Assembly (NCBI RefSeq): GCF_007644045.2
Contig: NZ_VMDW02000099.1
Location: 62,001 to 126,000, forward strand
Length of the DNA stretch: 64,000 nt
Reading direction: 5' to 3'
DNA from: Vogesella urethralis
GTDB taxonomy: Bacteria; Pseudomonadota; Gammaproteobacteria; Burkholderiales; Chromobacteriaceae
The notes below the pieces were generated by a model. It did no database searches and was not told the origin of the DNA. It saw only the letters and a list, made by a program, of their open reading frames with translations. Shown here one piece after another: positions 1 to 64,000 of this stretch. A program made the position numbers and the translations under genes. How positions within the stretch are numbered: the stretch's first letter is position 1; each line of letters begins with the position of its first letter.

Positions 1-817
1 TGGTGATCTCGTCCACGCGGGGCAGCGGGTGCAGGATCTTCATGTTGGGGCGGGCGTGGCGCAGCATGTCGGCGCGCAGCACGAACTGGCCCTTGATCTT
101 CTGGTACTCGGCCTCGTCGAAGCGCTCGCGTTGCACGCGGGTCATGTACAGGATGTCGATATGCGGGATCACTTCTTCGATCGTGCTGGCAATGGTGTAG
201 CTGATGCCGCGTTCGTCCAGCTCTTCGCACAGGTAGTCCGGCATCGCCAGCGCCTCGGGGCCGACAAAGTAGAACTTGGCACCGAACAGCGACAGCGCCT
301 GCGCCAGCGAGTGCACGGTACGGCCGTACTTCAGGTCGCCGACGAAGGCCACGGTCAGGTTGTCCAGCCGGCCCTGGGTTTCGTGCAGGGTGAACAGGTC
401 GAGCAGGGTTTGCGACGGGTGCTGGTTGGCACCGTCACCCCCGTTGATGATGGGCACGGCGGAGAACTCGCTGGCCACGCGGGCGGCGCCTTCCTTCGGG
501 TGGCGCATCACGATGGCGTCGGTATAGCTGCTGATGATGCGCACGGTGTCGGCCAGCGTTTCCCCCTTCTTGGTGGAGGTGCTGGCGGCGTCGGAGAAGC
601 CGATCACGGTACCGCCCAGGCGCTGTACGGCGGTTTCGAACGACAGGCGGGTGCGGGTGGACGGTTCGAAGAAGCAGGTAGCAATCAGGCGATCCTGCAG
701 CAGATCGGCACGCGGGTTGGCTTTCAGGCGTGCGGCGGTTTCCACCACCAGTTCCAGTTCGGCCCGGCTGAAGTCCGGGATGGAGAGGATGTGCTTGCGG
801 TAAAGCGGGTTGGACAT
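1..817 (-). CDS. pyrB: Aspartate carbamoyltransferase catalytic subunit (C-terminus cut by window edge)
   Basis: PyrB condenses carbamoyl phosphate with L-aspartate to give carbamoyl aspartate, the first committed step of pyrimidine synthesis, in the cytosol. The 272 visible residues align almost throughout with E. coli PyrB. They include the carbamoyl-phosphate loop [13 protein letters not shown] near residue 50, KKGETLADT near 82, [11 protein letters not shown] near 132 and HPLPRVDE at the window edge, so about 40 C-terminal residues are missing. The ATG at 817 has GGAG nine bases upstream. The gene sits behind a leader peptide and attenuator (853-989), so expression is probably set by UTP level. 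Whether pyrI follows cannot be seen. Confidence 0.97.
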
Positions 818-852
818 GGCGGGTCGCTCCGGCAGATGACAAAAACAGGCTG

Positions 853-888
853 AAAAAAAAGCCCCTGAGCAATCAGGAGCTTTTTTTG
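853..888 (-). terminator. Intrinsic terminator / attenuator upstream of pyrB
   Basis: Read on the minus strand, a 9-bp stem (AGCTCCTGA / TCAGGGGCT, one mismatch) with a 4-nt loop is followed at once by eight U residues. It lies only 35 nt before the pyrB start codon and after the likely promoter, so it must act as an attenuator of pyrB rather than as the end of another gene. The stop codon of the small leader ORF lies inside the first stem arm, the arrangement needed for ribosome-mediated disruption of the hairpin. Confidence 0.85.
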
Positions 889-989
889 CAAAAACGGTCG
901 GGCCCGGCAGCACGTCGTTCGCGGCCGGAAACGGCATTGCCTTGCGCCTGGGCGGCAAGGAAAGCGGTACGGTAGCGGGAACGGGACAT
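873..989 (-). CDS. Putative pyrB leader peptide (38 aa)
   Basis: A 38-codon ORF starts about 20 nt after the presumed transcription start and stops inside the attenuator stem. Its last codons run through a U-rich patch (CGTTTTTGC) just before the hairpin. In E. coli pyrBI, low UTP makes RNA polymerase pause in a U-rich leader, the ribosome catches up and blocks the terminator. This layout has all the parts of that mechanism, although the peptide has no obvious similarity to E. coli PyrL. It has no strong Shine-Dalgarno sequence. The assignment rests on position and architecture only. Confidence 0.5.
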
Positions 990-1009
990 GGTGCGGCTCG
1001 CGAACAAAA

Positions 1010-1046
1010 TCGCGGGATTATACGAAATCCGCTGCGGTGTGGGTAG
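1010..1046 (-). promoter_or_regulatory. Candidate sigma70 promoter for the pyrB leader
   Basis: On the minus strand there is a perfect TATAAT at 1017-1022, giving a start near 1010 and about 20 nt of leader before the 38-codon ORF. The -35 region is poor (TACCCA near 1040). The identification rests on the -10 box and its position. Confidence 0.55.
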
Positions 1047-1309
1047 GGGGCAGCTGGTGATCAGCCGTGCGGCCAACAGTACGAAGCCTGCGGCCAACCA
1101 TGGCCGCCAGCGTGGCCCCAGCAGTGTGGCCGGCGCGCCGAGCAGTAATAGCAGTAGCCATTGGCTGTGGGCTGATACGGTGGCGGGTATCGCTTGCTAT
1201 TGCGGCCAACCATAGCGGGTAATGAGCTGTCGTTTTGAAAAGCACATTCATCTACCGAATCCGCTACGCGGATGATGTTTGAAGATGCCGGTTCCGCCCG
1301 GCAAACGGG

Positions 1310-1336
1310 AAAGGGGGCGGATTGCCGCCCCCTTTT
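1310..1336. terminator. Strong GC hairpin, probable bidirectional terminator
   Basis: An 11-bp perfect stem, AAAGGGGGCGG / CCGCCCCCTTT, with a 4-nt loop is flanked by A and T residues. It lies between the pyrB leader and the chemoreceptor gene ending at 1579, about 240 bp past the latter's stop. The rest of 1047-1578 has no credible gene. It holds three copies of the GCGGCCAAC word (1069, 1090, 1202) and the nested inverted repeat at 1384-1460. Confidence 0.6.
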
Positions 1337-1383
1337 CATTCCCCCGCAACCCGGGGCTGCTCGAAACCCCGGTCAAAACGGCA

Positions 1384-1460
1384 CGCCCCAGGCGCCGCCG
1401 AACTCGCTCCTCGCTAACGGCTCGGAGCTCAAACAAATCGGCGTCTTAAAACCTGGGGCG
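1384..1460. repeat. Nested inverted repeat in the pyrB-chemoreceptor gap
   Basis: Three nested complementary pairs fold this 77-nt stretch into one long interrupted hairpin: CGCCCCAGG (1384) with CCTGGGGCG (1452), CGCCGA (1396) with TCGGCG (1438), and GCTCC (1406) with GGAGC (1424). It encodes no plausible protein. It could be a dispersed extragenic palindrome or a small structured RNA. From memory, similar GTTTGAGC...GAGTTCGGCG intergenic sequences recur in other proteobacteria, which I cannot verify here. Confidence 0.55.
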
Positions 1461-1578
1461 CACCATTTTGCCCGGCTCGCGCCAACGGGACCGGGTGATC
1501 GACTGGCCTTTCAGCGGCTGACCAGGTTGTCTGCGCGCATTCAGTGCTGTCCGGTGGCTTTCGAGCGCGGGCCTTTCC

Positions 1579-3657
1579 TTACAGCCGGAAGTTGCTGACC
1601 AGCCGCTCCAGGTTGCCCGACAGCTCGCGCAGCTGCTCTACCTCGCTGCGCACCTCGCGCGCGATGTCGCTGTTGGTGTGCGCCATATTGCTGATGCGCT
1701 CCACGTTCTGCGCGATTTCGGTGGTGGCGCTGGATTGCTCGCGGGTAGACGAGGCGATGTCGCCGATGGACAGCACCAGTACCTGGCTCTTCTCCTGTAC
1801 CGACTGCATGGCCTGGTTGGCCGCATGGGCGATGTCCACGCTGGTGGCTACCAGGTCACGGCTACGTTTTACCTCGGCGACGGCGTCGCCGGTTTCGCTG
1901 CCGATGGCATTGACGATACGGCTGATCTGCACCGTGGCTTCGGCGGTGCGGCCGGCCAGGTTGCGCACCTCGTCCGCTACCACGGCAAAGCCGCGGCCCT
2001 GCTCGCCGGCGCGTGCTGCTTCGATGGCTGCGTTCAGTGCCAGCAGGTTGGTCTGGTCGGCAATGTCCTTGATCACGTTGACAATGGTGTTTACCTCCTG
2101 TGAACGCTCGCCCAAGGCACCCATGCGGTCGGCCAGCGCCTGCATGCTGCTGGTCATGCGGCGGATTTCGCCGGTGACTTGCTCGACGGTGGCCACGCTC
2201 TGCTCGGTCAACTGGCCGGTATCCTGCACGATCTTCTCGGCATCGCTGGCCGAGTTGGCGATGTGCTGCACGCTGACGGTGACTTCTTCCACGCCGGCGG
2301 CGGTGGCGCTGGCGGCGTCGGACTGTTGCGCCGAGGCCTGTTCCACCTTGATGGCGCTGTCTGCCAGCTGGCCTGCGCTGCGGCTGACGGCCAGGCTCTG
2401 CTCGCGCACGTCGATGAACATCTCGCGCAGGCTATCGATAAAGCGGTTGAAGGCGTCGGCGGTGTGGCCGATCTCGTCGCGGTTGCTGACCTGGATGCGT
2501 ACGGTAAGGTCGCCCTTGCCACTGGCCAGCTGTTCCATGGTGTTGGCCAGCGTATTCAGCGGACGGGTCAGCGCGCGTACCACGGCGGCTAGCACCAGCA
2601 GGATGATCACCAATGCCACAATGCCGATCACGATGGCCATATTGCGCTGGCTGACGGCCGACTCGGTAATGGCGGCGGTGGGGATGGCAACGCCGGCCGC
2701 CCAGAACTGCCCGGTATTGCCGACCTTGATCGGGTAGAAGAAGTGGGTGAAACCACCGTCTTCAAACACGAAGTCTTCACCTTTGCGGATTTTGTCCTGG
2801 TAACTGGTGAGCACGTCTTCCTTGGCCAGCGGTTTGCCCACCAGGGCGGCGTCGGGGTTGACCACGTACAGGCCGCCTTCCGACACCATGCGCACGTAGC
2901 CGGTTTCATACAGCTTCACGCTGCCGTATTTCTTCTGCAGTGTGTCCAGCGCCAGGTCGGCTGCCGCAACGCCGAGAAACTTGCCGCTACCATCTTTGAT
3001 GGCCACGGCCAGCGAGCTTTCCAGTACTTGCTTGCCTTGTACTTCGTAGAAGAACGGCTCGGTGATGGTGTCGCGGCCACGGGTTTTCGGTACGTAGTAG
3101 AAATCGCCCCAGCCCGGCTTGTCGTAGTCGGGCACATACTCGGTGAGCTTGTCTTTCCACTCCGGAAACTTCTCTACCCGGTCTTTGGACATCATTACGT
3201 CCTGCGCGGCCTTGCCGTCACCGCCACGGGTCATGTACGGGCTGTAGCGGCCGGTGGGGTCGTGACGCGGCCAATCCAGACGGAATGCGTCGTCTTTGCC
3301 GTCCAGCGCGTTGGGTTCGTACAGCATCCACATGCCGATGATTTGCGGTTCGGCGTCCAGCATGCTGAGGATGGTGTTGTCGATGACCTTGCGGTCGACG
3401 GTGCCGGCGCGCTGCATGCCGGCCACCGCGTCGGCCAGGTGTTTGGGTACGCTGAAGCCGTAGGCCAGGTCGGCGGTGACGGCGTCGGCAAAGCGGCCGG
3501 CCTGTTCCGACGCCAGCTTGTAGCCTTGTTCTTCGGCCGATTGGTAACTCTGACGCGCGATCAGCCCGATCATGCTGCTGAAGCCGACGGCGATGGCGAT
3601 GCCGGCGACCACGATGATGCGGTTACCCAGGTGTCCCCATTGCTTTACTGTAGCCAT
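1579..3657 (-). CDS. Methyl-accepting chemotaxis protein, dCache sensor
   Basis: A 692-residue membrane chemoreceptor that would pass ligand signals from the periplasm to CheA/CheW. A first membrane helix (about 14-36) is followed by a roughly 300-residue periplasmic dCache-type domain, a second helix at about 339-361, a HAMP domain to about 415 and a cytoplasmic signalling coiled coil. The hairpin tip, with the family signature [19 protein letters not shown], is near residues 530-550. The protein ends soon after the coiled coil and has no NWETF-type tether for CheR. The ATG at 3657 directly precedes the signal-anchor helix. It stands alone, so its ligand cannot be inferred from neighbours. 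Confidence 0.95.
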
Positions 3658-5230: not shown

Positions 5231-5264
5231 GCGGCCAACCCTAGCGGGGTTGGCCGCTGTTTTT
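5231..5264. terminator. Bidirectional terminator built from two inverted GCGGCCAAC words
   Basis: GCGGCCAACC (5231) pairs with GGTTGGCCGC (5248-5257), followed by TGTTTTTTTGG on the plus strand. It lies 30 bp past the HD-GYP stop and 12 bp before the end of the convergent GGDEF gene. This is one of several places where the over-represented word is used head-to-head as a stem. Confidence 0.85.
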
Positions 5265-6388: not shown

Positions 6389-8293
6389 TTACTTGATCAG
6401 CTCCAGCGTGATGGCGTCGTCGCTGCCCTCGCTTACCAGGCGGAACTCCGGGTGACGGTCCAGCACCGCCTTGGCGCCGGCGCCGGTGGCAAAGCGCAGG
6501 CCGACACCGGCCACCGGCAGGATGCGCCAGTTGTTGTCGCGGCTGGGGTTGACCTTGCCTTCGCTGGCCAGGTAGCGCGCCAGCGCCTCGCGGTTTTCGT
6601 CCGGGGCATCGATGACGATTTGCTTGCCGTTCAGGCCGGCAAAGTTGCCGCCGCCGCTGGCGCGGTAGTTGTTGGTGGCCACCAGGAAGGTCTGGTTATC
6701 GTCCAGCGGCTTGCCGTCGTAACGCAGGTTGACGATGCGGTGCGCGGCCGCATTGGCCAGCTTGCCGTCCATGTCGTAGCGCGAAGGCTGCGTCACGTCG
6801 ATCTCGTAGCTGACGCCATCGATGGTGTCGAAGTTGTAGGAGCGGAAGTCGGGGTTGATCAGCTCCTGCGCCGCCGGGCCTTGCGGGTCGATGCGGTTGA
6901 ACTGGCCTGCCGAGCGCTCCAGCCATTCACGCACGTCGCTGCCTTTCACCTTCACCACTTTCAGGGTGTTGGGGTAAATGTACAGGTCGGCGAGGTTTTT
7001 GATCGCCAGCGGGCCGGCCGGAATATCGGTGTAGTAACGCCAGCCCTGGCGGCCACCGGCCTTGAACGGGGCGGCTGCCGACAGCAGCGGCAGCTGTTCG
7101 TACTCGGTGCCGCGCACCGCGTTCTTCACGTACCAGCGCTGTGCCTGCGATACCAGTTGTACCGACGGGTCGTCGGCCACCTGGGCAAAGTAGCTGTAGA
7201 TCGGCGCCGTGGTTTCCGCCACCCGGCCGCGCACGTAGGCCAGCGTGTCGTCGTGCACGTGGCCGATCAGGTCGCGCACCATCGGGTCGGCGTCCACGGT
7301 GGGCTTCTTGGCTTTCTTGTCGAAGATCGGGCGCAGGCTGGCTTGCTGGTCGACTACTTTCCAGTTGCGGCCAACCTTGTCCAGCGTCAGGTCGATCACG
7401 CCCAGGTGGTCGCCCCAGCGGCCGGGCATGGTGGCGGCCACGCCGTTGATGGTGCCCTTGTCGATATTGACCTTCGGGTAGTCGGCAAATGCCTTGGACG
7501 GAAACTCGGCGTGGGCGTGGCCGAACAGGATGGCGTCAATGCCCGCCACCTCGGCCAGGCCGGCGACCGAGTTTTCGGCAAAGCGCGGCTGTTCGCCCTT
7601 CTCGAAGCCGGAGTGCGCTACGGCTACCACGATGTCGGCGCCTTTTTTCTTCATTTCCGGCACGTAGCGGCGGGCGCTTTCCAGGATGTCTTGCGCTTGC
7701 ACGCGGCCTTCCAGGTTGGCTTTGTCCCACATCAGGATCTGCGGCGGCACGAAGCCGATCACGCCGATGGTCAGCGTGTGCATCTTGCCGTCTTCATCCT
7801 GCACCTTGCGCTTGAGCAGGGTGTAGGGCTGTACCAGCGGCTTGCCGGTTTTGGCGTCGGTGACGTTAGCGGACACGTACGGGAAGGCGGCACCTTGCAG
7901 CGCCTGCTTCAGGAACGGCAGGCCGAAGTTGAACTCGTGGTTGCCGATATTGCCGGCGTCGTAGCGCAGCGCGTTCATCACGGTGTAGGCGGGGTGGGTG
8001 TCACCCTTTTTCAGCGGTTTCACCTTGGCGACCAGGTCGCCCATCGGGCTGCCTTGCAGCAGGTCGCCGTTATCGATCAGCACGCTGTTGCGCGCCTCGG
8101 CGCGGGCGGCCTTGATCAGGCTGATGGTTTTGGCCAGGCCGAACTCGTCGGTGGCTTTGTCCTGGTAGTAGTCGTAGTTCACCAGGTTCATGTGGATATC
8201 GCTGGTTTCCAGCAGGCGCAGCTTCACCGGGGCGGCCCAGGCGCTGGAAACGGCGACAGCCAGCAGGCTGGCGGCAAACAGTTGGCGTGTCAT
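6389..8293 (-). CDS. cpdB: Periplasmic 2',3'-cyclic-nucleotide 2'-phosphodiesterase / 3'-nucleotidase
   Basis: A 634-residue exported enzyme (E. coli CpdB is 647) that opens 2',3'-cyclic nucleotides and dephosphorylates 3'-nucleotides, allowing salvage of RNA breakdown products. A Sec signal peptide spans residues 1-20 (cleavage after SSAWA). The metallophosphoesterase domain shows LLETSDIHMNL, IDNGDLLQGSP, GNIGNHEFNFG and FGHAHAEFP, which supply the two-metal ligands. The 5'-nucleotidase C-terminal domain follows from about residue 350, with the substrate loop YRASGGGNF near 550. It stands alone between two terminator regions. Confidence 0.95.
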   Translation of the reverse strand: MTRQLFAASLLAVAVSSAWAAPVKLRLLETSDIHMNLVNYDYYQDKATDEFGLAKTISLIKAARAEARNSVLIDNGDLLQGSPMGDLVAKVKPLKKGDTHPAYTVMNALRYDAGNIGNHEFNFGLPFLKQALQGAAFPYVSANVTDAKTGKPLVQPYTLLKRKVQDEDGKMHTLTIGVIGFVPPQILMWDKANLEGRVQAQDILESARRYVPEMKKKGADIVVAVAHSGFEKGEQPRFAENSVAGLAEVAGIDAILFGHAHAEFPSKAFADYPKVNIDKGTINGVAATMPGRWGDHLGVIDLTLDKVGRNWKVVDQQASLRPIFDKKAKKPTVDADPMVRDLIGHVHDDTLAYVRGRVAETTAPIYSYFAQVADDPSVQLVSQAQRWYVKNAVRGTEYEQLPLLSAAAPFKAGGRQGWRYYTDIPAGPLAIKNLADLYIYPNTLKVVKVKGSDVREWLERSAGQFNRIDPQGPAAQELINPDFRSYNFDTIDGVSYEIDVTQPSRYDMDGKLANAAAHRIVNLRYDGKPLDDNQTFLVATNNYRASGGGNFAGLNGKQIVIDAPDENREALARYLASEGKVNPSRDNNWRILPVAGVGLRFATGAGAKAVLDRHPEFRLVSEGSDDAITLELIK

Positions 8294-8380: not shown

Positions 8381-8725
8381 TCAGCCCAGTGCGCGGCTGC
8401 CGTCGGCCGGGTACTTGCGGGCGTTCTTCTGCAGCTTGTCGGCCACGGCGGCGTTGAGGTCCACGCCTGTCACATCGGCCAGTCGCACCAGGTACATCAG
8501 CACGTCGGCCAGCTCTTCCTGCAAGTGGGTGTACTCGGCCGGGTTGGCCGCAAGGTTGGCGGCCTCGGCGTCGGTCTTCCACTGGAAGATCTCGGCCAGC
8601 TCGCCCACTTCGCCGGTCAGCGCCAGCATCAGGTTGCGCGGGGTGTGAAACGGTTGCCAGTGGCGGGCGGCGGCAAATTCGCGCTGGGCGGCGATCAGGC
8701 CGTCTACGTTCACAAGGTGGGTCAT
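8381..8725 (-). CDS. MazG-like nucleotide pyrophosphohydrolase (dCTPase type)
   Basis: A 114-residue all-alpha protein of the MazG/DCTPP1 superfamily, which hydrolyses (d)NTPs to (d)NMP and pyrophosphate and helps keep nucleotide pools clean. It has the paired acidic motifs EVGELAEIF (about residues 35-43) and EELADVLMYLVRLAD (about 68-82) that bind magnesium. The ATG at 8725 was chosen over an in-frame start nine codons upstream because AAAGGA lies eight bases before it and the family starts here. The exact substrate is not fixed by sequence. Confidence 0.88.
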   Translation of the reverse strand: MTHLVNVDGLIAAQREFAAARHWQPFHTPRNLMLALTGEVGELAEIFQWKTDAEAANLAANPAEYTHLQEELADVLMYLVRLADVTGVDLNAAVADKLQKNARKYPADGSRALG

Positions 8726-8804: not shown

Positions 8805-9413
8805 TTACAGCAGGCCTTCTTCCTTCATCGCCTGTTGCACCGCCGGGCGGGCAAAGATGCGGGCGCTGAACGCCTGCAGCGCCGGCCAGGTGTCCAGGGT
8901 GCGGCCAACGTATTTGGTCCACGACAGGCACACGAACAGGTAGCCGTCGGCCACGGTGTAGCTGTCGCCCAGCAGGTAGTCCTGCTGGCCCAGTGTGGCG
9001 TTGAGCGCGTCAAAGCGGGTGCTCAGGCGCTGCCAGGCAGCCTCTTTGACGGCATCGTCCTGGCTGTAGAACATCGGCGAGAAGCCCTTGTGCACTTCGG
9101 TGGAAATGAAGTTCAGCGCTTCTTGCAGGCGGTAGCGTGCCAGCGTGCCGTTGGCCGGGGCCAGGTTTTTTTCCGGCGCCAGGTCGGCAATGTACTGCAC
9201 CAGCGCCGGGCCTTCGGTGAGGATCTCGCCGTTATCCAGCTGCAGCGCCGGTACGTAGCCCTTGCTGTTGATGGCGCGGAAGTCGGCGCCGCTTTCGGTG
9301 AGGCGCGGCTCGGCGCGCAGGTTCACTTTTTCGAACTGGTACGGCAGGCCGCTCTCGGCCAGGGCAATGTGCGGGGACAGCGAGCAGGCACCGGGGGAGT
9401 AGAACAGTTTCAT
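8805..9413 (-). CDS. gstA: Glutathione S-transferase, beta class
   Basis: A 202-residue cytosolic enzyme that conjugates glutathione to electrophiles. It aligns along its full length with E. coli Gst. The N-terminal thioredoxin-like domain has YSPGACSLSPH, placing the beta-class cysteine at residue 10, and the glutathione-binding LTEGPALVQYIADL near 65. The C-terminal helical domain contains ELHKGF-like TEVHKGFSPMF and YTVADGYLF, the N-capping box. It is monocistronic, with hairpins on both sides. Confidence 0.95.
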   Translation of the reverse strand: MKLFYSPGACSLSPHIALAESGLPYQFEKVNLRAEPRLTESGADFRAINSKGYVPALQLDNGEILTEGPALVQYIADLAPEKNLAPANGTLARYRLQEALNFISTEVHKGFSPMFYSQDDAVKEAAWQRLSTRFDALNATLGQQDYLLGDSYTVADGYLFVCLSWTKYVGRTLDTWPALQAFSARIFARPAVQQAMKEEGLL

Positions 9414-10286: not shown

Positions 10287-11066
10287 TCAGGCGAGGACGC
10301 CGTCGATCAGTACATTGAGGCGGCCGCGCGAGCAGGCTTCGACGCGGCTTTGCACGCCGTAGACGCTGGCCAGCGTGGCCGGAGTAATCACGTCGGCAGG
10401 TTGGCCGCAGGCCAGCACGGCGCCGTGTTTCAGTAATAGCGCACGGTGGCAGTGGTGCAGCGCGATGTTGAGGTCGTGCAGCACCACCAGCGTCACCATG
10501 CGGCGGCGGCGGGTTTCCTCGGCCACCAGCTGCATCACGTGGCACTGGTGGTTGAGGTCCAGTGCCGACAAAGGTTCGTCCAGCAGCAGCACGTCGGGCT
10601 GGCGGATCAGCGCCTGCGCCAGGCCCACCAGCTGCTTCTGGCCGCCGGATAGCTCGTCCAGGTAGCGCATGCCCAGCTCGGCAATGCCCAGCCGCGCCAG
10701 CAGGGTGTCGATGTCGGCGGCGGCGTGGCGGCTGGCCAGCCCCAGGCCGGTGGCGTTGGCCGCCACCATCACCGATTCCACCACCCGCAGGTGCAGCGCC
10801 GGCGGCAGGCTTTGCGGCAGGTACACCACGTGGCGGGCGCGCGCTTCCAGCGGCAGCGCCCCCAGCGCCTTGCCATCCAGCGTTACGCTGCCGTGCAGCG
10901 GCAAGAGGCCGGCCAGTGTTTTCAGCAGCGTGGACTTGCCACAGCCATTGGGGCCGAGCACCGCGGCCACTTCGCCGCGCGGCAGCGGCGGGCAGCTGAT
11001 GTCGCTCAGGATCTGGCGGCGGCCGTAGCTGGCGGCCACGCCTTGCAGTAACAGGCCGTCGTTCAT
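10287..11066 (-). CDS. Iron-siderophore ABC transporter ATP-binding protein (FecE/FhuC type)
   Basis: A 259-residue ATPase that powers the inner-membrane siderophore importer. It has Walker A GPNGCGKST (about residues 35-43), the Q-loop YLPQSLPP, the signature LSGGQKQL, Walker B VLLLDEP and the H-loop histidine in VVLHDLNIA. The ATG at 11066 overlaps the permease stop as ATGA, so the two are translationally coupled. A longer upstream ORF in this frame is an antisense-like artefact of the permease gene. Confidence 0.95.
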   Translation of the reverse strand: MNDGLLLQGVAASYGRRQILSDISCPPLPRGEVAAVLGPNGCGKSTLLKTLAGLLPLHGSVTLDGKALGALPLEARARHVVYLPQSLPPALHLRVVESVMVAANATGLGLASRHAAADIDTLLARLGIAELGMRYLDELSGGQKQLVGLAQALIRQPDVLLLDEPLSALDLNHQCHVMQLVAEETRRRRMVTLVVLHDLNIALHHCHRALLLKHGAVLACGQPADVITPATLASVYGVQSRVEACSRGRLNVLIDGVLA

Positions 11067-13331: not shown

Positions 13332-13369
13332 TGCGGCCAACCTTGCCGGGGCAGCGAAGGTTGGCCGCA
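13332..13369. terminator. Inverted pair of GCGGCCAAC words after the TonB receptor gene
   Basis: TGCGGCCAACCTT (13332-13344) pairs perfectly with AAGGTTGGCCGCA (13357-13369), a 13-bp stem with a 12-nt loop. It starts 5 nt past the receptor stop codon. No U run follows, so it may be a terminator or an mRNA-stabilising hairpin between receptor and ABC genes. Confidence 0.65.
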
Positions 13370-17392: not shown

Positions 17393-17704
17393 TCAGTGCT
17401 GGTCGTCTGCCGGCTTGCGGCCAAACAGCACGCGCGGGGCGTTGCCGTGGCCGGTGTGCGAACGCGGCGGGTGCGCCGGTTTCGGGGTTTTCAGCTGGAT
17501 GTACAGCGCTTCCACTTCGGCGCGTGCCCACGGGGTGCGGCGCAGGAAGGTGAGGCTGGACTTGATGCTGGGGTCGCTGTTGAAGCAGCGAATTTTCACC
17601 AGGCGACCCAGTTGCGGCCAACCGTAGTGCGCCACCAGTTCGTTCAGCAGCGCTTCCAGGGTAACGCCTTGCAGCGGGTCTTTGCGGGCGGGGGTGTCGC
17701 TCAT
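17393..17704 (-). CDS. VF530 family (DUF2132) small protein
   Basis: A 103-residue protein matching the VF530/DUF2132 family over its first ~75 residues ([40 protein letters not shown]). The rest is a basic, low-complexity tail. A structural genomics study of the Vibrio member suggested DNA binding, but the function is not established. The ATG overlaps the stop of the upstream YkgJ-like gene as ATGA, so both are made together. Confidence 0.88.
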
Positions 17705-20437: not shown

Positions 20438-20497
20438 GAGCGTCTTCCTGCACTATCGATACGGCATCATGGCATGCGCAGCTGCCTGCGGCCAACC

Positions 20498-21369: not shown

Positions 21370-21421
21370 GGCAGCCTCCCGCTAAGTAAAGGCGGCATTT
21401 TAGGCGCAGTTGGCCGCGTTT

Positions 21422-36155: not shown

Positions 36156-36240
36156 GCGGTAGGGGTGTGATGGGGAACGCGACGCGGCATGGTAGCAGCT
36201 TGCCGCGCGGCCAAGGTTGGCCGCAGGGGCAGGTGGTGGG

Positions 36241-39096: not shown

Positions 39097-39159
39097 GGCA
39101 GGGCTCCGGGTTGGCCGCACGGGCAGGATAGACGCAATGAAAATGGCATTGTGCCAGCA

Positions 39160-41645: not shown

Positions 41646-41783
41646 GGGGCAAGGCTCCGGCAGGTGGGGAGCTTTCAGCATAGACGGGTAGCGGAACTGT
41701 CGGCAGCGTGCTTCACTCTACGCAGCACGCAACAGTTGGCCGCACAGTGCACCGGCACCGGCCGCATACTCAAGGAGAAAGGC

Positions 41784-47276: not shown

Positions 47277-47336
47277 GTCTGGCTTTCTGTTGATCAGGGT
47301 TGGCCGCACGTGGCGGCCTGGGGTAACGATGGCTGG

Positions 47337-51959: not shown

Positions 51960-53519
51960 CTATTTGAGAGTGCCTGCCAGACGGGCGCAGTTGCGGCCGG
52001 CGGCTTTGGCCTGGTACATGGCGGCGTCGGCGCGGGCGATCAGGGTGTCGGTGTGTTCGCCGTCCGGGTGCAGGGTGGCCACGCCGATGCTGCAGGTCAG
52101 CGCCAGCTGCTCGTCGTGCCATACCGGGGCCAGCCCGGCCAGCGTGCGGCACAGGCGCTCGGCCAGCAGCAGCGCCGGCTGCTCGGTTTCCTGCGGCAGC
52201 AGGATGCAGAACTCTTCGCCGCCCCAGCGCGCGATGATGTCGATTTCGCGCAGCTGCTCGCGCAGCATGCGGCCAACCTCTTTCAGCACGTGGTCGCCGG
52301 CCGGGTGGCCGAGGCGGTCGTTGAGCGCCTTGAAGTGGTCGAGGTCCAGCATCAGCAGGCTGAAGCGTTGCCGGTAGCGGGCAAAGCGTTGCTGGCTGTA
52401 CTGGCAGCGCTCCAGGAAGGCGCGGCGGTTCAGCAGGCCGGTGAGCGGGTCCAGCGTGGCCTGGCGGGCCAGCTCGGCTTCGGCGGCCTGGCGCGCCAGT
52501 TCCAGCTCGCGCACGTGCAGCAGGGTACCGATGCTGTCGGACAGGGTGGTGAGGTGCTCGACGATTTCTTCGTCGAAGCCTTCTGCCCGGTTGGCCAGTA
52601 CCAGCACGCCCAGCACCGACAGGTGGAAGAAGCACGGGATCACCAGCAGGTTTTGCAACGGTTGAAGGCTGCCGCCGGGGTCGTATAGCGCGGGGTGGCG
52701 GATGACCAGCGGCTCGCCGTTGGCGATGGCCTGGCCGAAAACGTGGTCCAGCCCGTACAGGTGGTAGCCGCTGGGTTGCGGCACCAGTTGCCGCATCAGC
52801 CATTGCAGCGCGTCCTGCTGCTGATGGGCAATGCTGGGGATGGCCAGGTAGGGGGTGTCGCTGTCGTTGACCTGGCAACTGGCGATAAAGCCTAGCGTGC
52901 AGTGGCTCATGTCCAGCAGCGACTGGGTGATGGTGCTGCAGGCCGCGCCCAGGTCGCGGTCCAGCAGGAAGCTGCTTTGCGCCTGGTTGATGGTGAGCAG
53001 CAGCCGTAGCTGGCGTTGGCCCAGTTGCACTGCCATACGCTTGCGGATCAGGTCGCTGAGGGTGTCGGCCAGCTGTTGCAGCAGGGTCTGGTCTTGCAGG
53101 TTGAACTGGCGGGGCTGGCGGTCGATCAGGCACAGCGTGCCGATGGCCAGCTGGTCGCTGATCAGCAGCGGGGCGCCGGCGTAAAAGCGGATGCTGGGGT
53201 CGCCCAGTACCAGCGGGCTGTCGGCAAAGCGGTCGTCTTGCAGCGCGTTGTCTACCACCAGCATGCGGCCACTGGCCACCACATGGCCGCAGAACGACAC
53301 CTCGCGCCCGGTTTCGCAGACGTCCACGCCTACCTTGGCCTTGAACCATTGCCGCTGGGCGTCGATCAGCGATACCAGGGCGATGGGCACCCGGAAGACG
53401 CTGGCGGCCAGTTGCACGATGCGGTCGAACTCGATCTCTGCGGGCGTATCGAGTAGCGCACTGCGGTTCAGTAACGCCAGCCTGGCGTGTTCGTGGCTGG
53501 CGGTGGGGGGTATCTGCAT
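51960..53519 (-). CDS. GAF-GAF-GGDEF diguanylate cyclase
   Basis: A 519-residue cytosolic protein. Two GAF domains span about residues 20-160 (FKAKVGVDVCETGREVSFCG, YAGAPLLISDQLAIGTLCLI) and 180-335. The GGDEF domain follows from about 350. Active site WGGEEFCILL is intact. The I-site REID lies five residues before it, so product inhibition is expected. GAF domains bind small ligands or sense redox, but the signal is unknown. Confidence 0.93.
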   Translation of the reverse strand: MQIPPTASHEHARLALLNRSALLDTPAEIEFDRIVQLAASVFRVPIALVSLIDAQRQWFKAKVGVDVCETGREVSFCGHVVASGRMLVVDNALQDDRFADSPLVLGDPSIRFYAGAPLLISDQLAIGTLCLIDRQPRQFNLQDQTLLQQLADTLSDLIRKRMAVQLGQRQLRLLLTINQAQSSFLLDRDLGAACSTITQSLLDMSHCTLGFIASCQVNDSDTPYLAIPSIAHQQQDALQWLMRQLVPQPSGYHLYGLDHVFGQAIANGEPLVIRHPALYDPGGSLQPLQNLLVIPCFFHLSVLGVLVLANRAEGFDEEIVEHLTTLSDSIGTLLHVRELELARQAAEAELARQATLDPLTGLLNRRAFLERCQYSQQRFARYRQRFSLLMLDLDHFKALNDRLGHPAGDHVLKEVGRMLREQLREIDIIARWGGEEFCILLPQETEQPALLLAERLCRTLAGLAPVWHDEQLALTCSIGVATLHPDGEHTDTLIARADAAMYQAKAAGRNCARLAGTLK

Positions 53520-54788: not shown

Positions 54789-55667
54789 ATGGAACACGCG
54801 CAGGCTTTGCTGAAGTCTTTATACGTGATGGCGATGATGGTGGAGGCGCGCGATGCCTATACCGGTGGCCATTTGTGGCGGGTATCGCAGTTTGCCCGCC
54901 TGGTGGCGGAACGCATGCAGCTGCCGGCAGACGAGGTGGCCCGCGTCGAGCTGGGCGGCTTTCTGCACGACCTGGGCAAGGTGGGCATTCCCGACGCGGT
55001 GCTGAACAAGCGCGACCGCCTGAGCGACGAGGAATACGCGGTGATCAAGACCCACCCGCAGGTAGGGGCCGACCTGCTGGCCGGCCACCCGCTGGCGGCG
55101 CTGGCGATGGACGCGGTGTGGCTGCATCACGAAACCCCGGACGGGCGCGGTTACCCGCAGGGTTTGTCCGGTAGCGCCATTCCGCGCGTGGCACGCATTA
55201 TCGGTGTGGTGGACGCGCTGGACGCGATGACCAGCTCGCGGCCTTACCGCGCCGGCATGCCGTTGGCGACGGCCTTGCAGATCATCGAGGACAACCTGGG
55301 CCGGCAGTTTGATAGCGAGGTTGGCCGCGTGGTACTGGGGCTGGGGCGCGATGGCGCGCTGGAGGCCATCATCGGTCATAGTGCGCCGGGGCGGCCGCTG
55401 CAGTCCTGCGCAGCGTGCGGGCCGACGCTGGTGATGCACAGCGAGGTGCAGGACGGCGATACCGTGCACTGCCCCTCGTGTGCGATGGGTTACCACGTGA
55501 GCCATCAGCAGGGTCATTGGCAGGTGGCGGCTACCGGCGTGGCCAACCCGGTACTGGCGCGCCAGCCGCGCGCCGATACCGCCCTGATCGAGCGCCTGGT
55601 ACAGCCGGCGTACCGGCTGTTGCCGCAGCCCAAGCGCTGGCTGGGCTGGTTCGGCGCGCCGGCCTGA
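54789..55667 (+). CDS. HD-GYP phosphodiesterase with C-terminal zinc ribbon
   Basis: A 292-residue cytosolic protein. The HD-GYP domain covers about residues 5-185: TGGHLWRVSQFARLVAERM, GGFLHDLGKVGIPDAVLNK, and HHETPDGRGYP. All HD-GYP residues are intact, so cyclic-di-GMP hydrolysis is likely. Residues about 214-240 hold CAACG and HCPSCAMGYH, a four-cysteine ribbon that is unusual for this family. There is no receiver or other sensor domain. Start at 54789 (a codon 16 residues upstream is ignored). Confidence 0.92.
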   Translation: MEHAQALLKSLYVMAMMVEARDAYTGGHLWRVSQFARLVAERMQLPADEVARVELGGFLHDLGKVGIPDAVLNKRDRLSDEEYAVIKTHPQVGADLLAGHPLAALAMDAVWLHHETPDGRGYPQGLSGSAIPRVARIIGVVDALDAMTSSRPYRAGMPLATALQIIEDNLGRQFDSEVGRVVLGLGRDGALEAIIGHSAPGRPLQSCAACGPTLVMHSEVQDGDTVHCPSCAMGYHVSHQQGHWQVAATGVANPVLARQPRADTALIERLVQPAYRLLPQPKRWLGWFGAPA

Positions 55668-56581: not shown

Positions 56582-58669
56582 TTACTTGGCGGCGGCGCCG
56601 TCACCGGCCACGATGGCGTTCAGCTGCGACGACAGCTCGACCATGGCCTTGCTGGCCGCCGCCTTCATCTTGGCAGCTTTCGGGTCGCTGGTTTCGGCCT
56701 TGGCCACTTTGGCCGGCTTGGCGGCTTTGCCTTTCACCGCCTTGCTGCTGTCGGCGCTGGCATCCTGGCTGGCGTCTGCCTTGGCCACCGGCTTGTTGGC
56801 CTTGGCCGGGCGGCCGAACAGCACCGGGCGGACGTACACCACGTAGCGTTCGATCTCGGCCAGCAGTTTGCCCGGCACGTTCATGCGGCGCGACAGGTCC
56901 TGGGCGCGGGCCAGTTGTGCGCGGCCCATGTCCTGTTCCAGCTGGGCCAGGTTGTTGGCGGCCAGCGTGTCACCCTGGGCGCGGGCCAAGTTATGCAGCG
57001 CGTAGGACACGATCGGGTCTTTCGGCACGCCCTGGCCGTAGTAGTACATCACGCCCAGGTTGTTCAGACCGCCCACGTTGTACTGCGCGGCGGCTTTGCG
57101 GTACCAGGCCACGGCTTCGTCGTAGCTCTGCTTCACGCCTTGGCCGTTTTCATACAGGCCACCCAGGCTGAACTGGGCGTCGGCGTTACCGCTCTTGGCG
57201 GCTTTGCGGTACCAGTTGGCGGCTTGTTCGTAGTTCTGCTCAGTGCCCTGGCCGTTGTAGTACTGGCCGGCCAGTGCCACTTGTGCGGCCACGTTGTCTT
57301 GCGCGGCGGCTTGCTGGTTCAGCTGGAAGGCTTTTTTCAGGTCGAACGGCACACCGTTACCCTTGGCGTACAGCGCGGCCAGGCTGGCCTGGGCCTGGGC
57401 ATCACCCTGGCTGGCGGCCTTGCTGTACCAGCTGGCGGCCTGGGTGTAGTCCTGCGGCAGTTCGTTGCCCTTCTCGTACAGCTGCGCCAGGCTGGTCTGC
57501 GCGGCGGCGTGACCCTGGTTGGCGGCCTTGTTGTACCACATGGCGGCGTCGGTCAGGTCCTGTGCGGTGCCTTGGCCTTTTTCCAGCATCTGGCCCAAGC
57601 TGTATTGCGCGTTGGCGTCGCCTTGTTCGGCGGCTTTCACGAACCAGCTGGCGGCCAGCTGTTCGGTGGCACGGCGGTGCCATACGGCGGCCTGTGCCGG
57701 GTCTTTCGGTACGCCCAGGCCGCTCTGGTACAGGTTACCCAGGATGGCCTGCGCGTTCGGGTGGCCTTGTACCGCGGCCTTGCGGTACCAGTTGGCCGCA
57801 TTCACGTAATCCTGCTCCACGCCACGGCCTTGCTGGTACATCTGCGCCAGGCTGAACTGGGCGTCGGCGTCGCCCTGGTCGGCGGCTTTGGCGAACCAAT
57901 CGGCTGCGGCGGCGTAATCCTGCGGTACGCCTACGCCGTTATGGAACATGGTAGCCAGCGCCGATTGCGCGTCCACATAGCCCTGTTCGGCGGCTTTGCG
58001 GAACCACTTGGCGGCTTCTACCGGGCTTTTTTCCACGCCACGGCCTTGCTGGTACAGCACGCCAAGGTTGTACTGTGCCTGGGCCACGCCCTGCTCGGCA
58101 GCCTTGCGGTACAGCGTGGCGGCTTGCGCCGGGCTGGCCGGGGCGCCGGTGCCGTTCTGCACCATTTCGGCCAGATTGGCCTGCGCCTGGGCGTTACCGC
58201 TCTTGGCTGCCTTGCGGTACCAGTAGGCGGCGCCGGTGACGTCCATCTGCTGCACGCGGCCGCTCTGGTACAGCGCAGCCAGGTGGGTTTGAGCCACGGT
58301 GTTGCCCTGCTCGGCGGCCTTGCGGTACCAGCTGGCAGCCGCGCTCAGGTCTTGCGCTACGCCGTTGCCCTTCTCGTACAGCTGGCCCAGGTTCAGCTGT
58401 GCGTCGGCGTAGCCTTGCTCGGCCGCCTTGCGGTACCAGTTGGCCGCCTGTTCCAGGTTAACCGGGGTGCCCAGCCCTTTGCGGTACAGCTCGCCCAGCT
58501 GGTACTGCAGGCTGGCGTTGCCTTGCTCGGCTGCTGGCGTCCACTCGCGCAAGGCGGTGGTGAAATCCCCCTTGTTGAAGGCGATGCGGCCTTCCTTGAT
58601 GCCGGCAAACGCCGGTGCGGCCAGCATCAGGCTGGTCACGAGGACAGTCGTGGCGAAGCGTTTTTTCAT
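56582..58669 (-). CDS. Exported Sel1-repeat (SLR) protein
   Basis: A 695-residue protein with a signal peptide (MKKRFATTVLVTSLMLAAPA). It holds about 15 tandem Sel1-like repeats of 36 residues, each of the form AAxWYRKAAEQGxAxAQxxL-GxLYxxGxG, over about residues 30-580. A lysine/alanine-rich tail follows (PVAKADASQDASADSSKAV, KGKAAKPAKVAKAE). Such proteins act as scaffolds for protein-protein contacts at the envelope. The repeats are close enough in DNA to allow copy-number change. The partner is unknown. Confidence 0.92.
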   Translation of the reverse strand: MKKRFATTVLVTSLMLAAPAFAGIKEGRIAFNKGDFTTALREWTPAAEQGNASLQYQLGELYRKGLGTPVNLEQAANWYRKAAEQGYADAQLNLGQLYEKGNGVAQDLSAAASWYRKAAEQGNTVAQTHLAALYQSGRVQQMDVTGAAYWYRKAAKSGNAQAQANLAEMVQNGTGAPASPAQAATLYRKAAEQGVAQAQYNLGVLYQQGRGVEKSPVEAAKWFRKAAEQGYVDAQSALATMFHNGVGVPQDYAAAADWFAKAADQGDADAQFSLAQMYQQGRGVEQDYVNAANWYRKAAVQGHPNAQAILGNLYQSGLGVPKDPAQAAVWHRRATEQLAASWFVKAAEQGDANAQYSLGQMLEKGQGTAQDLTDAAMWYNKAANQGHAAAQTSLAQLYEKGNELPQDYTQAASWYSKAASQGDAQAQASLAALYAKGNGVPFDLKKAFQLNQQAAAQDNVAAQVALAGQYYNGQGTEQNYEQAANWYRKAAKSGNADAQFSLGGLYENGQGVKQSYDEAVAWYRKAAAQYNVGGLNNLGVMYYYGQGVPKDPIVSYALHNLARAQGDTLAANNLAQLEQDMGRAQLARAQDLSRRMNVPGKLLAEIERYVVYVRPVLFGRPAKANKPVAKADASQDASADSSKAVKGKAAKPAKVAKAETSDPKAAKMKAAASKAMVELSSQLNAIVAGDGAAAK

Positions 58670-60085: not shown

Positions 60086-60120
60086 AAGGTTGGCCGCATT
60101 ACCTGTGGCCAACCTTTTGT
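60086..60120. terminator. Terminator after thiC made from the GTTGGCCGC word
   Basis: AAGGTTGGCC (60086) pairs with GGCCAACCTT (60107-60116) around an 11-nt loop. The plus strand has TTTTGTTTC after it and the minus strand ATTTGG. It starts 26 bp past the thiC stop. Confidence 0.75.
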
Positions 60121-60142
60121 TTCACGTGAAGCAATCGCCGTA

Positions 60143-62164
<2,022 letters not shown>

Positions 62165-62290: not shown

Positions 62291-62299
62291 GTGAAGGTA

Positions 62300-62330
62300 A
62301 GGTAATTGTGGGATAATCGCAAGTTGCCAT
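62300..62330 (-). promoter_or_regulatory. Candidate promoter of the thiC transcript
   Basis: Minus strand TTGCGA followed 17 bp later by TACCTT, with transcription expected just before the riboswitch. The match is modest, and position is the main support. Confidence 0.4.
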
Positions 62331-62421
62331 CTGCCGGACGATTGTGGAAGCAGGGTTGCCACAGCCCCGCTTTCAGAATCGCCCTATATGTTATTTGTCT
62401 TGGATCCCCCGGAGTTTCCGA

Positions 62422-63081
62422 ATGAATTTCGAACAAGCCCGTTTCAACATGGTTGAGCAGCAAATCCGTCCGTGGGATGTGCTCGACACCTCCATCCTCG
62501 ACCTGCTGTTCCACGTGAAGCGCGAAGACTTCGTGCCGGTAGAAAAGCGCCTGCTGGCCTTCGTGGACACCCAGCTGCCGCTGGAAAACGGCAGCACCAT
62601 GCTGGAGCCGAAAGTCGAAGCCCGCCTGCTGCAAGACCTGCAAGTGAAAGCCAGCGACAAGGTACTGGAAGTGGGTACCGGTAGCGGCTACCTCACCGCC
62701 CTGCTGGCCGCAGTAAGCCAGCACGTGTACAGCGTGGACCTGGACGCCGAGCAAAGCGAGCGCGCTGCGGCCAACCTGAAAACCGCCGGCATCCGCAACG
62801 TGACCCTCAGCGTAGGCAACGGCATTGCCGGCCTGCCGGAGCAAGCCCCGTTCGACGTGATCTGCGTTGGCGGCTCCACCCCGGTGGTGCCGGAAACCCT
62901 GAAGGCCCAGCTGGCCGTGGGTGGCCGCATGGCCGTGATCGTGGGCGATGCCCCGGTGATGATTGCCAAGATCATTACCCGCGTCAGCGAAAACGCGTTC
63001 CAGGAAAGCGTGAGCTTCGATACCAACCTGCCGCGTCTGCAGCAGATCGACGCCATCGAACCGGCCCGCTTCAGCTTCTGA
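62422..63081 (+). CDS. Protein-L-isoaspartate O-methyltransferase-like protein
   Basis: A 219-residue class I methyltransferase of the PCMT family, which repairs isoaspartyl residues in aged proteins. It has FNMVEQQIRPWDVLD at the start, the SAM motif VLEVGTGSGYLTALLA near residue 79, and FDVICVGGSTPVVPE. The start of PCMT proper is altered (no SSRTD-type loop), so it belongs to the Pcm-like group common in betaproteobacteria just before a rhodanese gene, as here (stop and start overlap by 1 nt). ATG at 62422 fits the family start. Confidence 0.88.
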   Translation: MNFEQARFNMVEQQIRPWDVLDTSILDLLFHVKREDFVPVEKRLLAFVDTQLPLENGSTMLEPKVEARLLQDLQVKASDKVLEVGTGSGYLTALLAAVSQHVYSVDLDAEQSERAAANLKTAGIRNVTLSVGNGIAGLPEQAPFDVICVGGSTPVVPETLKAQLAVGGRMAVIVGDAPVMIAKIITRVSENAFQESVSFDTNLPRLQQIDAIEPARFSF

Positions 63082-63407
63082 TGATTCGCGAAATCAGTGC
63101 CACCGAGCTGGCCGCCTGGCTGGCCGATAGCAGCCGCCCGCAGCCCTACCTGCTGGACGTACGCGAAGACTGGGAACTGGCCCTGTGCCGCATTCCTGGC
63201 TCGCAGCAGATCGCCATGCACCTGATTCCGCTGCGCCACAACGAGCTGCCGGACGACGCGCCCATCGTTACCATCTGCCACCACGGCGTGCGCAGCTTCC
63301 AGGTGGGCCTGTTCCTGCAGAACGCCGGTTTCGAGCAGGTGCTGAGCCTGCGCGGCGGCGTGGAAGCCTGGGCCAACGACGTTGACCCGAGCATGGCGCA
63401 CTACTGA
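63081..63407 (+). CDS. Rhodanese-like sulfurtransferase
   Basis: A 108-residue single-domain rhodanese. YLLDVREDWELALCRIPGSQ is followed by the active-site loop CHHGVRSFQ, whose cysteine (about residue 69) would carry persulfide, and the C-terminal SLRGGVEAWAN. It is coupled to the Pcm-like gene (TGATG). It may supply sulfane sulfur or take part in repair, but the acceptor is unknown. Confidence 0.93.
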   Translation: MIREISATELAAWLADSSRPQPYLLDVREDWELALCRIPGSQQIAMHLIPLRHNELPDDAPIVTICHHGVRSFQVGLFLQNAGFEQVLSLRGGVEAWANDVDPSMAHY

Positions 63408-63427
63408 GCGCCCGCTGCCGCACCCTC

Positions 63428-63456
63428 AAGCCGCCCCTGCCGGGCGGCTTTGTTTT
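63428..63456 (+). terminator. Terminator after the rhodanese gene
   Basis: AAGCCGCCC (63428) pairs with GGGCGGCTT (63442-63450), followed by TGTTTTT. Confidence 0.88.
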
Positions 63457-63479
63457 TGCCCCATTACCGGAAACCTGCC

Positions 63480-64000
63480 ATGTACCACCTCGCCCCTGCC
63501 CTCGCCCGCCTGCCTGCCGCCTGGCAAACCGTGCTGCAACAGCCTGCTATGGCGGCCAACTTGCAGCAGCTTGACGCCAAACTGGCCGAACGTGCCGCTG
63601 GCGGCGCCGTCATCTACCCGCCCGCCGGGCAGGTCTTTCACGCGCTGCAATATGCCGACCCGGCAGCGGTGAAGGTGGTGATCCTGGGGCAAGACCCGTA
63701 CCACGGCGCCGGCGAGGCGATGGGGCTGAGCTTTTCGGTGCCGGCCGGGGTGAAGATTCCGCCCAGCTTGCGCAATATGTACAAGGAACTGGCCAGCGAC
63801 CTCGGCATCGCCCCCGCCAGCCACGGCGACCTCACCCACTGGGCGCAGCAGGGCGTGCTGCTGCTGAACACCTCGCTGACGGTGGAGGCCGACTGCGCCG
63901 GCAGCCATGGCAAGTTCGGCTGGCAGACGGTGACCGACGCGCTGATCGACGCCGTTAACGCGCACAACCCCGGTTGCGTGTTTTTGCTGTGGGGCAACTG
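63480..64000 (+). CDS. ung: Uracil-DNA glycosylase (C-terminus cut by window edge)
   Basis: The first 173 residues of family 1 UNG, which removes uracil from DNA as the first step of base-excision repair. The water-activating motif GQDPYHG (near residue 70) and AMGLSFSVP follow the family order, as do LLLNTSLTVE and CVFLLWGN near the edge. The leucine loop (HPSPLS) is beyond the window. The ATG at 63480 follows a terminator by about 25 bp. Confidence 0.96.
   Translation, partial: MYHLAPALARLPAAWQTVLQQPAMAANLQQLDAKLAERAAGGAVIYPPAGQVFHALQYADPAAVKVVILGQDPYHGAGEAMGLSFSVPAGVKIPPSLRNMYKELASDLGIAPASHGDLTHWAQQGVLLLNTSLTVEADCAGSHGKFGWQTVTDALIDAVNAHNPGCVFLLWGN

Follow-up and report, generated by a model that had tools for sequence, protein, structure and literature searches.

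The stretch of Vogesella urethralis DNA analyzed here (64,000 nucleotides, hereafter the window) is densely populated by copies of a 9-mer, GCGGCCAAC. The Vogesella dialect of this word, AGGTTGGCCGCA, is very probably a DNA uptake sequence (DUS) that would be recognized by a ComP-type receptor, and it carries CCG where the words of Neisseria carry CTG. Vogesella is placed in the Chromobacteriaceae, order Neisseriales (NCBI taxonomy). The original prediction, made from the letters of the window, had proposed such a role, and the placement of the word, its distribution among genomes, the presence of ComP orthologs, and the existence of sister dialects all lend support to it. Most likely, to judge from sequence comparison, the word behaves as the DUS of the Neisseriaceae do yet lies outside their strict definition. 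Because the CTG core is missing and most receptor orthologs lack the second disulfide, it should not be counted as a further member under that definition.

Abundance and placement of the word

Across both strands, the window holds 57 exact copies of GCGGCCAAC (26 plus, 31 minus), one more than the 56 first reported. By comparison, 100 dinucleotide shuffles gave 2.8 +/- 1.7 copies with a largest value of 7, and an order-2 Markov model predicts 4.5. Among window 9-mers with at least eight copies, this one ranks first for excess over that model, and the massive over-representation claimed for it is real. No general enrichment of GGCC words is seen, as other GGCC-containing 9-mers that are not overlaps of GCGGCCAAC have top counts of 34. 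The signal also stays in the whole genome (4.03 Mb, 157 contigs), where 3,461 copies (1,716 and 1,745 by strand) can be compared with 86 copies (44 and 42) of the reversed word.

According to a simple gene caller of our own, intergenic DNA accounts for 7,995 of the 64,000 window bases, in keeping with the eighth estimated before. Where 19 intergenic copies had been given, the recount finds 18 that are wholly intergenic and one across a gene edge. Similarly, 15 of 16 quoted positions are exact, and 7377 must be corrected to 7367. The copies of GCGGCCAAC and their settings are as follows.

1069..1077, plus, intergenic
1090..1098, plus, intergenic
1202..1210, plus, intergenic
1816..1824, minus, predicted gene
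5231..5239, plus, left arm of inverted pair; T-run after stem, terminator-like
5249..5257, minus, right arm of inverted pair (partner of 5231)
7367..7375, plus, predicted gene (earlier given as 7377)
8543..8551, minus, predicted gene
8901..8909, plus, predicted gene
10400..10408, minus, predicted gene
10755..10763, minus, predicted gene
13333..13341, plus, left arm of inverted pair
13360..13368, minus, right arm of inverted pair (partner of 13333)
14295..14303, minus, predicted gene
15336..15344, minus, predicted gene
16129..16137, plus, predicted gene
17614..17622, plus, predicted gene
20488..20496, plus, intergenic
21409..21417, minus, intergenic
24967..24975, minus, predicted gene
25085..25093, plus, predicted gene
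25740..25748, plus, predicted gene
27475..27483, plus, predicted gene
28394..28402, plus, predicted gene
30490..30498, plus, predicted gene
30742..30750, minus, predicted gene
32035..32043, minus, predicted gene
33897..33905, minus, predicted gene
34594..34602, plus, predicted gene
34866..34874, plus, predicted gene
35872..35880, plus, predicted gene
36216..36224, minus, intergenic
37587..37595, plus, left arm of adjacent inverted pair
37596..37604, minus, right arm of adjacent inverted pair (partner of 37587)
38427..38435, minus, predicted gene
39110..39118, minus, intergenic
39323..39331, plus, left arm of adjacent inverted pair
39332..39340, minus, right arm of adjacent inverted pair (partner of 39323)
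39989..39997, minus, predicted gene
41735..41743, minus, across the edge of a predicted gene
42925..42933, minus, predicted gene
44021..44029, minus, predicted gene
44385..44393, plus, predicted gene
45098..45106, minus, predicted gene
45751..45759, plus, predicted gene
46180..46188, minus, predicted gene
47299..47307, minus, intergenic
50832..50840, plus, predicted gene
51300..51308, minus, predicted gene
52269..52277, plus, predicted gene
55320..55328, minus, predicted gene
57791..57799, minus, predicted gene
58439..58447, minus, predicted gene
60089..60097, minus, copy that forms a strong hairpin with a partial copy (GTGGCCAACCTT), followed by TTTT
62113..62121, minus, intergenic
62767..62775, plus, predicted gene
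63552..63560, plus, predicted gene

The four head-to-head pairs described for the window are present, and the pairing of the copy at 60089 with its partial partner is borne out. Hairpins at 5231 (z -3.2), 13333 (z -3.1), and 60089 (z -5.0) are better than those of shuffled sequences, whereas those at 37587 (z -1.1) and 39323 (z -1.7) are not clearly above them. Directly after the hairpin at 60089, at window positions 60118-60133, stands TGTTTCACGTGAAGCA, which differs by one base from the parS consensus.

Placement was evaluated further in 500 kb of the same genome, in which a simple codon-score script called 467 genes. This DNA holds 431 copies, with 106 wholly intergenic, 323 inside genes, and two across gene edges. 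The resulting intergenic density of 2.0 per kb exceeds the 0.73 found elsewhere by 2.8-fold, with intergenic DNA making up 10.5% of bases. Neighboring copies within 50 bp of each other are inverted in 29 of 31 pairs. The intergenic consensus, AAGGTTGGCCGCA, is graded over about 13 bases, beyond which conservation stops, and it is the reverse complement of the consensus proposed earlier, TGCGGCCAACCT, plus one base. Intergenic inverted pairs whose arms start within 35 bp number 20, none of them between divergent genes, compared with 52 divergent gaps among 290 of at least 40 bp. A TTTT run within 15 nt on either side accompanies only five of these 20 pairs, and the proposed use as terminator stems therefore holds only in part.

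Within genes, the favored reading frames encode Ala-Ala-Asn (135) and Leu-Ala (88). A codon test was conducted on 435 genes, with genes scoring under 30 set aside. Of 163 Ala-Ala-Asn sites, 134 use GCG GCC AAC (22.5 expected); of 69 Val-Gly-Arg sites, 49 use GTT GGC CGC (2.1 expected); and of 291 Leu-Ala sites whose context fits the word, 88 use TTG GCC (15.7 expected). Because the codon expectation is exceeded 5.6 to 24 fold, the copies in genes cannot be attributed to codon usage alone.

Depletion of the word in foreign DNA was seen in one plasmid, one prophage stretch, and one BREX-type stretch, all from Vogesella sp. XCS3. The plasmid (NZ_CP085531.1) has a GC content of 0.50-0.54, below that of the chromosome, and holds seven copies in 164,538 bp, with 2.8 expected from its own composition, compared with 588 copies in 660 kb of the chromosome. 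A 20 kb chromosomal stretch with a Mu-like prophage contains three copies, just one of them in the first 18 kb. All ten proteins scanned there (of 15 open frames) match PHROGs, including terminase, portal, major head protein, tail sheath, and transposase, and in 2 kb steps its GC content is 0.57-0.64 over the first 16 kb and drops to 0.52-0.55 thereafter. A third stretch (G004:C1:700001-720000), which encodes BrxC/D, TerB-domain, and helicase proteins, has zero copies over 9 kb and looks like an imported defense island. Another low-copy stretch from this strain (L280) has eight copies and a mixture of core and phage-like genes. Also, the longest word-free stretch in the 500 kb of the window genome (G000:C9:21513-29983; 8,470 bp, GC 0.55) is a candidate for a recent import.

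Distribution and dialects in the family

When 61 genomes were searched for GCGGCCAAC, all 13 Vogesella genomes proved to carry 2,312-3,490 copies, whereas 24 genomes from other genera of the family carry 77-269 and 24 genomes of other families at most 187. The signal is thus retained among relatives, and sister words are found in other genera. In a set of 40 genomes, TGCGGCCAAC occurs 1,871 times in the window genome and 1,871-2,442 times in all eight Vogesella genomes, compared with at most 58 times in the other 32. A neighboring word, TCGGCCAAC, is abundant in six of the 40, namely Pseudogulbenkiania ferrooxidans (1,220 copies), P. subflava (1,017), Neisseriaceae bacterium JH1-16 (2,363), Crenobacter luteus (1,780), C. 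oryzisoli (889), and Paludibacterium denitrificans (2,010). It is weakly in excess in two other Paludibacterium genomes (252 and 308 copies vs 87 and 94 of the reversed word), and numbers 41-123 copies in Vogesella and 27-167 in the remaining 24 genomes.

Surveys of the family and the order relied on GTTGGCCGMR, a pattern that covers all dialect forms. Among 61 genomes of the family, 22 are rich in the word, with 868-3,107 copies. These comprise 13 of 13 Vogesella, two of three Pseudogulbenkiania (our genus g2), both genomes of g3 and both of g4, the single genomes of g5 and g10, and one of ten Aquitalea (g6). The third genome of g2 (G029) is intermediate, with 294 copies vs 66, and the other 38 have at most 245 (the rest of g6, 19 of g7, which is read as Chromobacterium, six of g8, and four of g9). 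Of 399 genomes drawn from the order, 386 belong to other families, and each of these has 223 copies or fewer. No other abundant uptake-like word was found in samples of Aquitalea, two Chromobacterium, Paludibacterium purpuratum, and Crenobacter intestini, which covered 82-122 kb per species plus 57 kb from three more Aquitalea.

A tree of the U32 peptidase (36 rows), which is encoded at 39350-41338 in the window, does not unite the word-rich lineages in one clade, and losses or repeated gains must therefore be assumed. A tree of this single gene is too little to decide between the two. The window peptidase shares 96% identity with that of Beta proteobacterium L13, 95% with one from a MAG labelled Neisseriaceae, 94% with that of Vogesella oryzae, and 90% with that of V. 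indigofera, which in combination with the word marks the genome as a Vogesella. Four Vogesella have a cluster of seven or eight DnaA boxes, an origin-like site, at a distance of 1 to 4.5 kb from the U32 peptidase gene. The other four, the window included, have at most one box in the DNA examined near this gene, which suggests rearrangement within Vogesella.

Dialects were sampled in about 100-150 kb per group, with words oriented as for Neisseria DUS. The Vogesella dialect has a CA ending, and GTTGGCCGCA occurs 68 times in the window genome (1.8 expected) and 115 times in seven other Vogesella (1.7 expected). A form ending in AA, GTTGGCCGAA, is found 20 times in Pseudogulbenkiania (0.6 expected), 43 times in JH1-16 (0.8 expected), 60 times in P. 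denitrificans (0.8 expected), and 17 times in C. oryzisoli (0.7 expected), and it reaches 36 and 46 copies per 100 kb in the word-rich genomes of g6 (G017) and g5 (G016). A form ending in AG, GTTGGCCGAG, is found 63 times in C. luteus (0.8 expected) and at 61 copies per 100 kb in genome G024. The core, GTTGGCCG, is fixed across dialects and the last two bases vary. As had been noted for the window, the CTG of the known Neisseriaceae dialects is missing; all three dialects have CCG at that place, positions +6 to +8. Position +10 is A in the CA and AA dialects and G in the AG dialect.

All Neisseriaceae DUS dialects are described as having a CTG core and A at +10 in common (PMC3630211). The word AGGTTGGCCGAA agrees with two of these dialects, AGGTCGTCTGAA and AGGCTGCCTGAA, at nine of 12 positions, and the Vogesella and AG words agree with Neisseriaceae dialects at eight of 12. 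In simulations that allowed both orientations and one-base shifts, random or shuffled words reached nine of 12 in 0.5-0.7% of trials (P ~0.005-0.007) against five of the eight published Neisseriaceae dialects. Common descent of the Chromobacteriaceae and Neisseriaceae words is plausible on this resemblance.

Several other repeats were encountered in the sampled relatives. The palindrome TGCTTAAGCA is a second over-represented word in P. denitrificans (G075) beside the putative uptake word, with ten sites in about 102 kb (20 vs 0.18 expected, both strands). Runs of ten C or G occur 17 times in C. oryzisoli (0.02 expected; both strands, overlapping windows). In about 102 kb of Chromobacterium alkanivorans, CCCACCCTAC occurs nine times (0.04 expected) and AGATCGTAAA seven times (0.03 expected), and the two are perhaps a dispersed repeat.

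A ComP ortholog as candidate receptor

The search for a ComP-like pilin showed that each of the 22 word-rich members of the family encodes a ComP ortholog. Two simpler routes to a receptor were abandoned. The profile PF16732 (ComP_DUS) was rejected as a marker because it picks up pilins in 39 of 41 genomes, some of which are word-poor. Likewise, the first candidate, a 178-codon frame with the highest PF16732 score, was dropped when a relative in another genome (G009) proved to match PilA and PilE and no ComP.

In the window genome, the ComP ortholog is encoded outside the window (G000:C46:60836-61249). Its best match in the PDB is 2nba (6e-7), with a geopilin chain second and other ComP entries third and fourth, and three ComP entries are the top matches of the orthologs from C. 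oryzisoli and C. luteus. A profile of 27 orthologs matches 2nba (2.3e-20, positions 38-135 of 137), 2m3k (5e-18), and 5hz7 (2e-17), followed by 9egp (2e-12), which aligns at positions 2-63 only. The first three are structures of ComP (PMC12061091). As a control, another PF16732-positive pilin of Vogesella matches PilA and PilE, with no ComP among its 22 matches (E <= 0.01). All six ComP orthologs scanned score above the PF16732 cut-off, one of them from a word-poor Aquitalea.

Aquitalea, Chromobacterium, and other Paludibacterium keep the ortholog in diverged form. Top hits score no more than 56-69 bits in the word-poor Crenobacter caeni, C. intestini, two Craterilacuibacter, and Leeia, and these hits are taken for other pilins. 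A receptor tree groups the Vogesella rows in one clade and leaves the rest partly unresolved.

Word and receptor are connected by a short motif, N-x-D, in the beta1-beta2 loop, which is present in 21 of 22 word-rich orthologs and in none of 16 word-poor ones. For this comparison the intermediate G029, which has N-x-D, was set aside, duplicate entries of one genome (L306 and L316) were removed, and the pair of Paludibacterium genomes in which TCGGCCAAC is weakly in excess was counted as word-poor. The difference can be seen within one genus, as the loop reads ANTDAG in the word-rich Aquitalea (G017) vs GNARAD in five word-poor ones. Overall, the word-poor relatives examined have either a different receptor loop or no receptor ortholog that could be found. 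In the alignment rows of 18 of the 22 word-rich genomes, the residue immediately preceding N-x-D is Lys or Arg. In N. subflava ComP, the strongest shifts upon DUS binding occur in the beta1-beta2 loop with its central Lys/Arg90 (PMC12616744). To judge from the alignment of the 27-ortholog profile with ComP, the loop and basic residue found here might correspond to this loop and to Lys/Arg90.

General competence machinery is also in place. ComEC (TIGR00361) was matched in 17 of 17 genomes, 16 of them above the cut-off, and DprA (TIGR00732) was found in 17 of 17. Because word-poor genomes are included in both cases and most controls have these genes, they are evidence for the general machinery only. 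In P. denitrificans, the ComEC matches fall in two separate frames (G075:C3:1541296-1543079), and a second, weak DprA piece has an internal stop (G075:C3 1180068-1180705), which might reflect either competence decay or assembly errors. The same genome still has about 2,000 words, alongside a receptor without the loop motif.

These components suggest how the word might be used and maintained. A type IV pilus would use its ComP-type minor pilin, chiefly the beta1-beta2 loop of that protein, to bind the word on free double-stranded DNA, and word-bearing DNA would be pulled in, passed through ComEC, and recombined. Since tagged DNA would be taken up preferentially and would replace homologous chromosomal DNA, the word should accumulate and persist. 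It would be retained at sites that can accommodate it, most of all in intergenic DNA and at synonymous codon choices, and it would stay rare in foreign DNA of recent arrival.

Competing explanations and comparison with known systems

Several observations weigh against a role in DNA uptake. The CTG core, absent here, is required in N. meningitidis (PMC3630211). The word is only the second most over-represented 10-mer in the samples of Pseudogulbenkiania and C. oryzisoli, in the latter after runs of C. Aquitalea and Chromobacterium have a ComP ortholog and lack the word, P. denitrificans is rich in the word and has no loop motif in its receptor, and Fisher's test for loop and word (8e-10) ignores shared descent. 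PF16732 also matches other pilins in word-poor genomes, and the weakest ComP orthologs (72-82 bits) overlap paralogs of Vogesella (70-74 bits) in score, so that the ortholog call rests on the alignment, namely the WPxLP region and two invariant C-terminal cysteines. Neisseria ComP has four cysteines forming two disulfides reported as essential, one of which staples the DD loop (PMC12616744). Two cysteines are found in 29 of 39 orthologs here and three or four in ten, which departs from the two-disulfide receptor. Finally, one complete chromosome has a mild lagging-strand excess of the word, which is taken up below.

Among other explanations, the one that survives best is that the word is a DNA modification site, or a repeated word like HIP1, with a bias tied to repair or methylation, instead of uptake, as the cause of its enrichment, and even this is improbable. 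A HIP1-like word would fit the genome-wide excess, the scarcity in plasmid and prophage, and the restriction to certain clades. The palindrome GGCC contained in the word would likewise suit a modification site. However, the word as a whole is not palindromic, its extended consensus is graded over about 13 bases, related dialects vary at one end, and its presence tracks the loop of the ComP ortholog.

Still less likely is a motif for chromosome organization or recombination, such as an FtsK orienting polar sequence (KOPS), Chi, or the site of a nucleoid protein. The copies are spaced more evenly than random (coefficient of variation 0.84, Kolmogorov-Smirnov p 8e-5 against an exponential, with copies within 60 bp merged), as would befit such a motif. 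Both KOPS and Chi show a strong orientation bias relative to replication. When segments of the window genome are grouped by their local GC skew, with those under 0.02 set aside, the copies divide 125 to 133. In 33 segments of 20 kb from the complete chromosome of Vogesella sp. XCS3 (G004), the division is 261 to 327 (p = 0.007); the imbalance comes from the first 13 of them (92 to 148, p = 0.0004), and the further 20 give 169 to 179. A mild lagging-strand excess is thus possible and would be a point in favor of such a motif, whereas a strong strand excess is excluded; the signal for which a strand bias had been proposed as a check stays, with the reservation of this one chromosome. Also, 30 of the 33 segments have densities between 0.65 and 1.35 per kb, and inverted pairs are favored, neither of which suits an oriented motif.

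A mobile repeat, whether of the repetitive extragenic palindrome (REP) type or like a miniature inverted-repeat transposable element (MITE), or a spreading terminator element, would account for the intergenic inverted pairs with their avoidance of divergent genes (0 of 20) and occasional T-runs (5 of 20), and for the strong hairpins at 5231, 13333, and 60089. This is highly improbable, as predicted genes fully contain 323 of the 431 copies, no conserved flanks extend beyond the 13 or so bases, and synonymous codons are bent toward the word. A by-product of composition or codon usage is scarcely credible, for although a GC content of 66 percent makes GGCC words common, the reversed word is 40 times rarer, genera of the family with similar GC lack the word, and the comparison of GGCC words together with the codon test led this cause to be dropped.

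An uptake sequence thus remains the favored reading, and it invites a more tentative proposal, held with somewhat less than even confidence, about its origin. An ancestral uptake system older than the Neisseriaceae, and common to them and the Chromobacteriaceae, might have used a word of the form AGG(C/T)(C/T)GNC(C/T)GAA and a ComP receptor. A switch between CTG and CCG in the core, dialects in the last two bases, and several losses, each with decay of the loop, would then have followed.

Among the matches listed from open-licence PMC literature, no account of an uptake word for either Vogesella or the Chromobacteriaceae was found, and Table S1D of PMC3630211, which gives over-represented 10-mers, may hold the word. 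In the accessible portions of two papers on Neisseria DUS (PMC11316581, PMC10715097), Chromobacteriaceae are named in the references only. In Frye et al. (2013; PMC3630211), Lutiella nitroferrum 2002 appears among five genomes without an obvious DUS. That strain is Pseudogulbenkiania ferrooxidans 2002 (NCBI taxonomy), which is word-rich in the present counts.

Self-recognition uptake words are established in two families, the Neisseriaceae and the Pasteurellaceae. If the Chromobacteriaceae are another such family, their different core, their dialects (at least three), and their differing receptor loops would constitute a natural experiment for studying how ComP recognizes DNA and how word and receptor change together or decay. 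These environmental bacteria might also serve as models of DNA uptake specificity, and the word might provide a means to spot foreign DNA in their genomes.

There are instructive likenesses and differences between this word and known systems. Like the Chromobacteriaceae word, cyanobacterial HIP1 is a short GC-rich word over-represented throughout the genome; it is a palindromic octamer and has no known receptor. The uptake signal sequence (USS) of the Pasteurellaceae is an unrelated word. Nevertheless, the general logic of an abundant self-recognition word is shared with that system, for which the proposed receptor is ComN/PpdA and not ComP (PMC12616744). The differences from the Neisseriaceae DUS are the occurrence in another family, the Chromobacteriaceae, CCG in place of CTG at +6 to +8, and, compared with Neisseriaceae ComP, two cysteines in most receptor orthologs. 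The likenesses to that system (PMC3630211, PMC3868556) include a word of 10-12 bases in hundreds to thousands of copies on both strands, clade-specific dialects, intergenic inverted pairs, rarity in foreign DNA, and a ComP-type minor pilin found in every rich genome. At the level of individual bases, the AG prefix, G at +1, G at +4, C at +6, and G at +8 are shared with most Neisseriaceae dialects, as is A at +10 in two of the three Chromobacteriaceae dialects.

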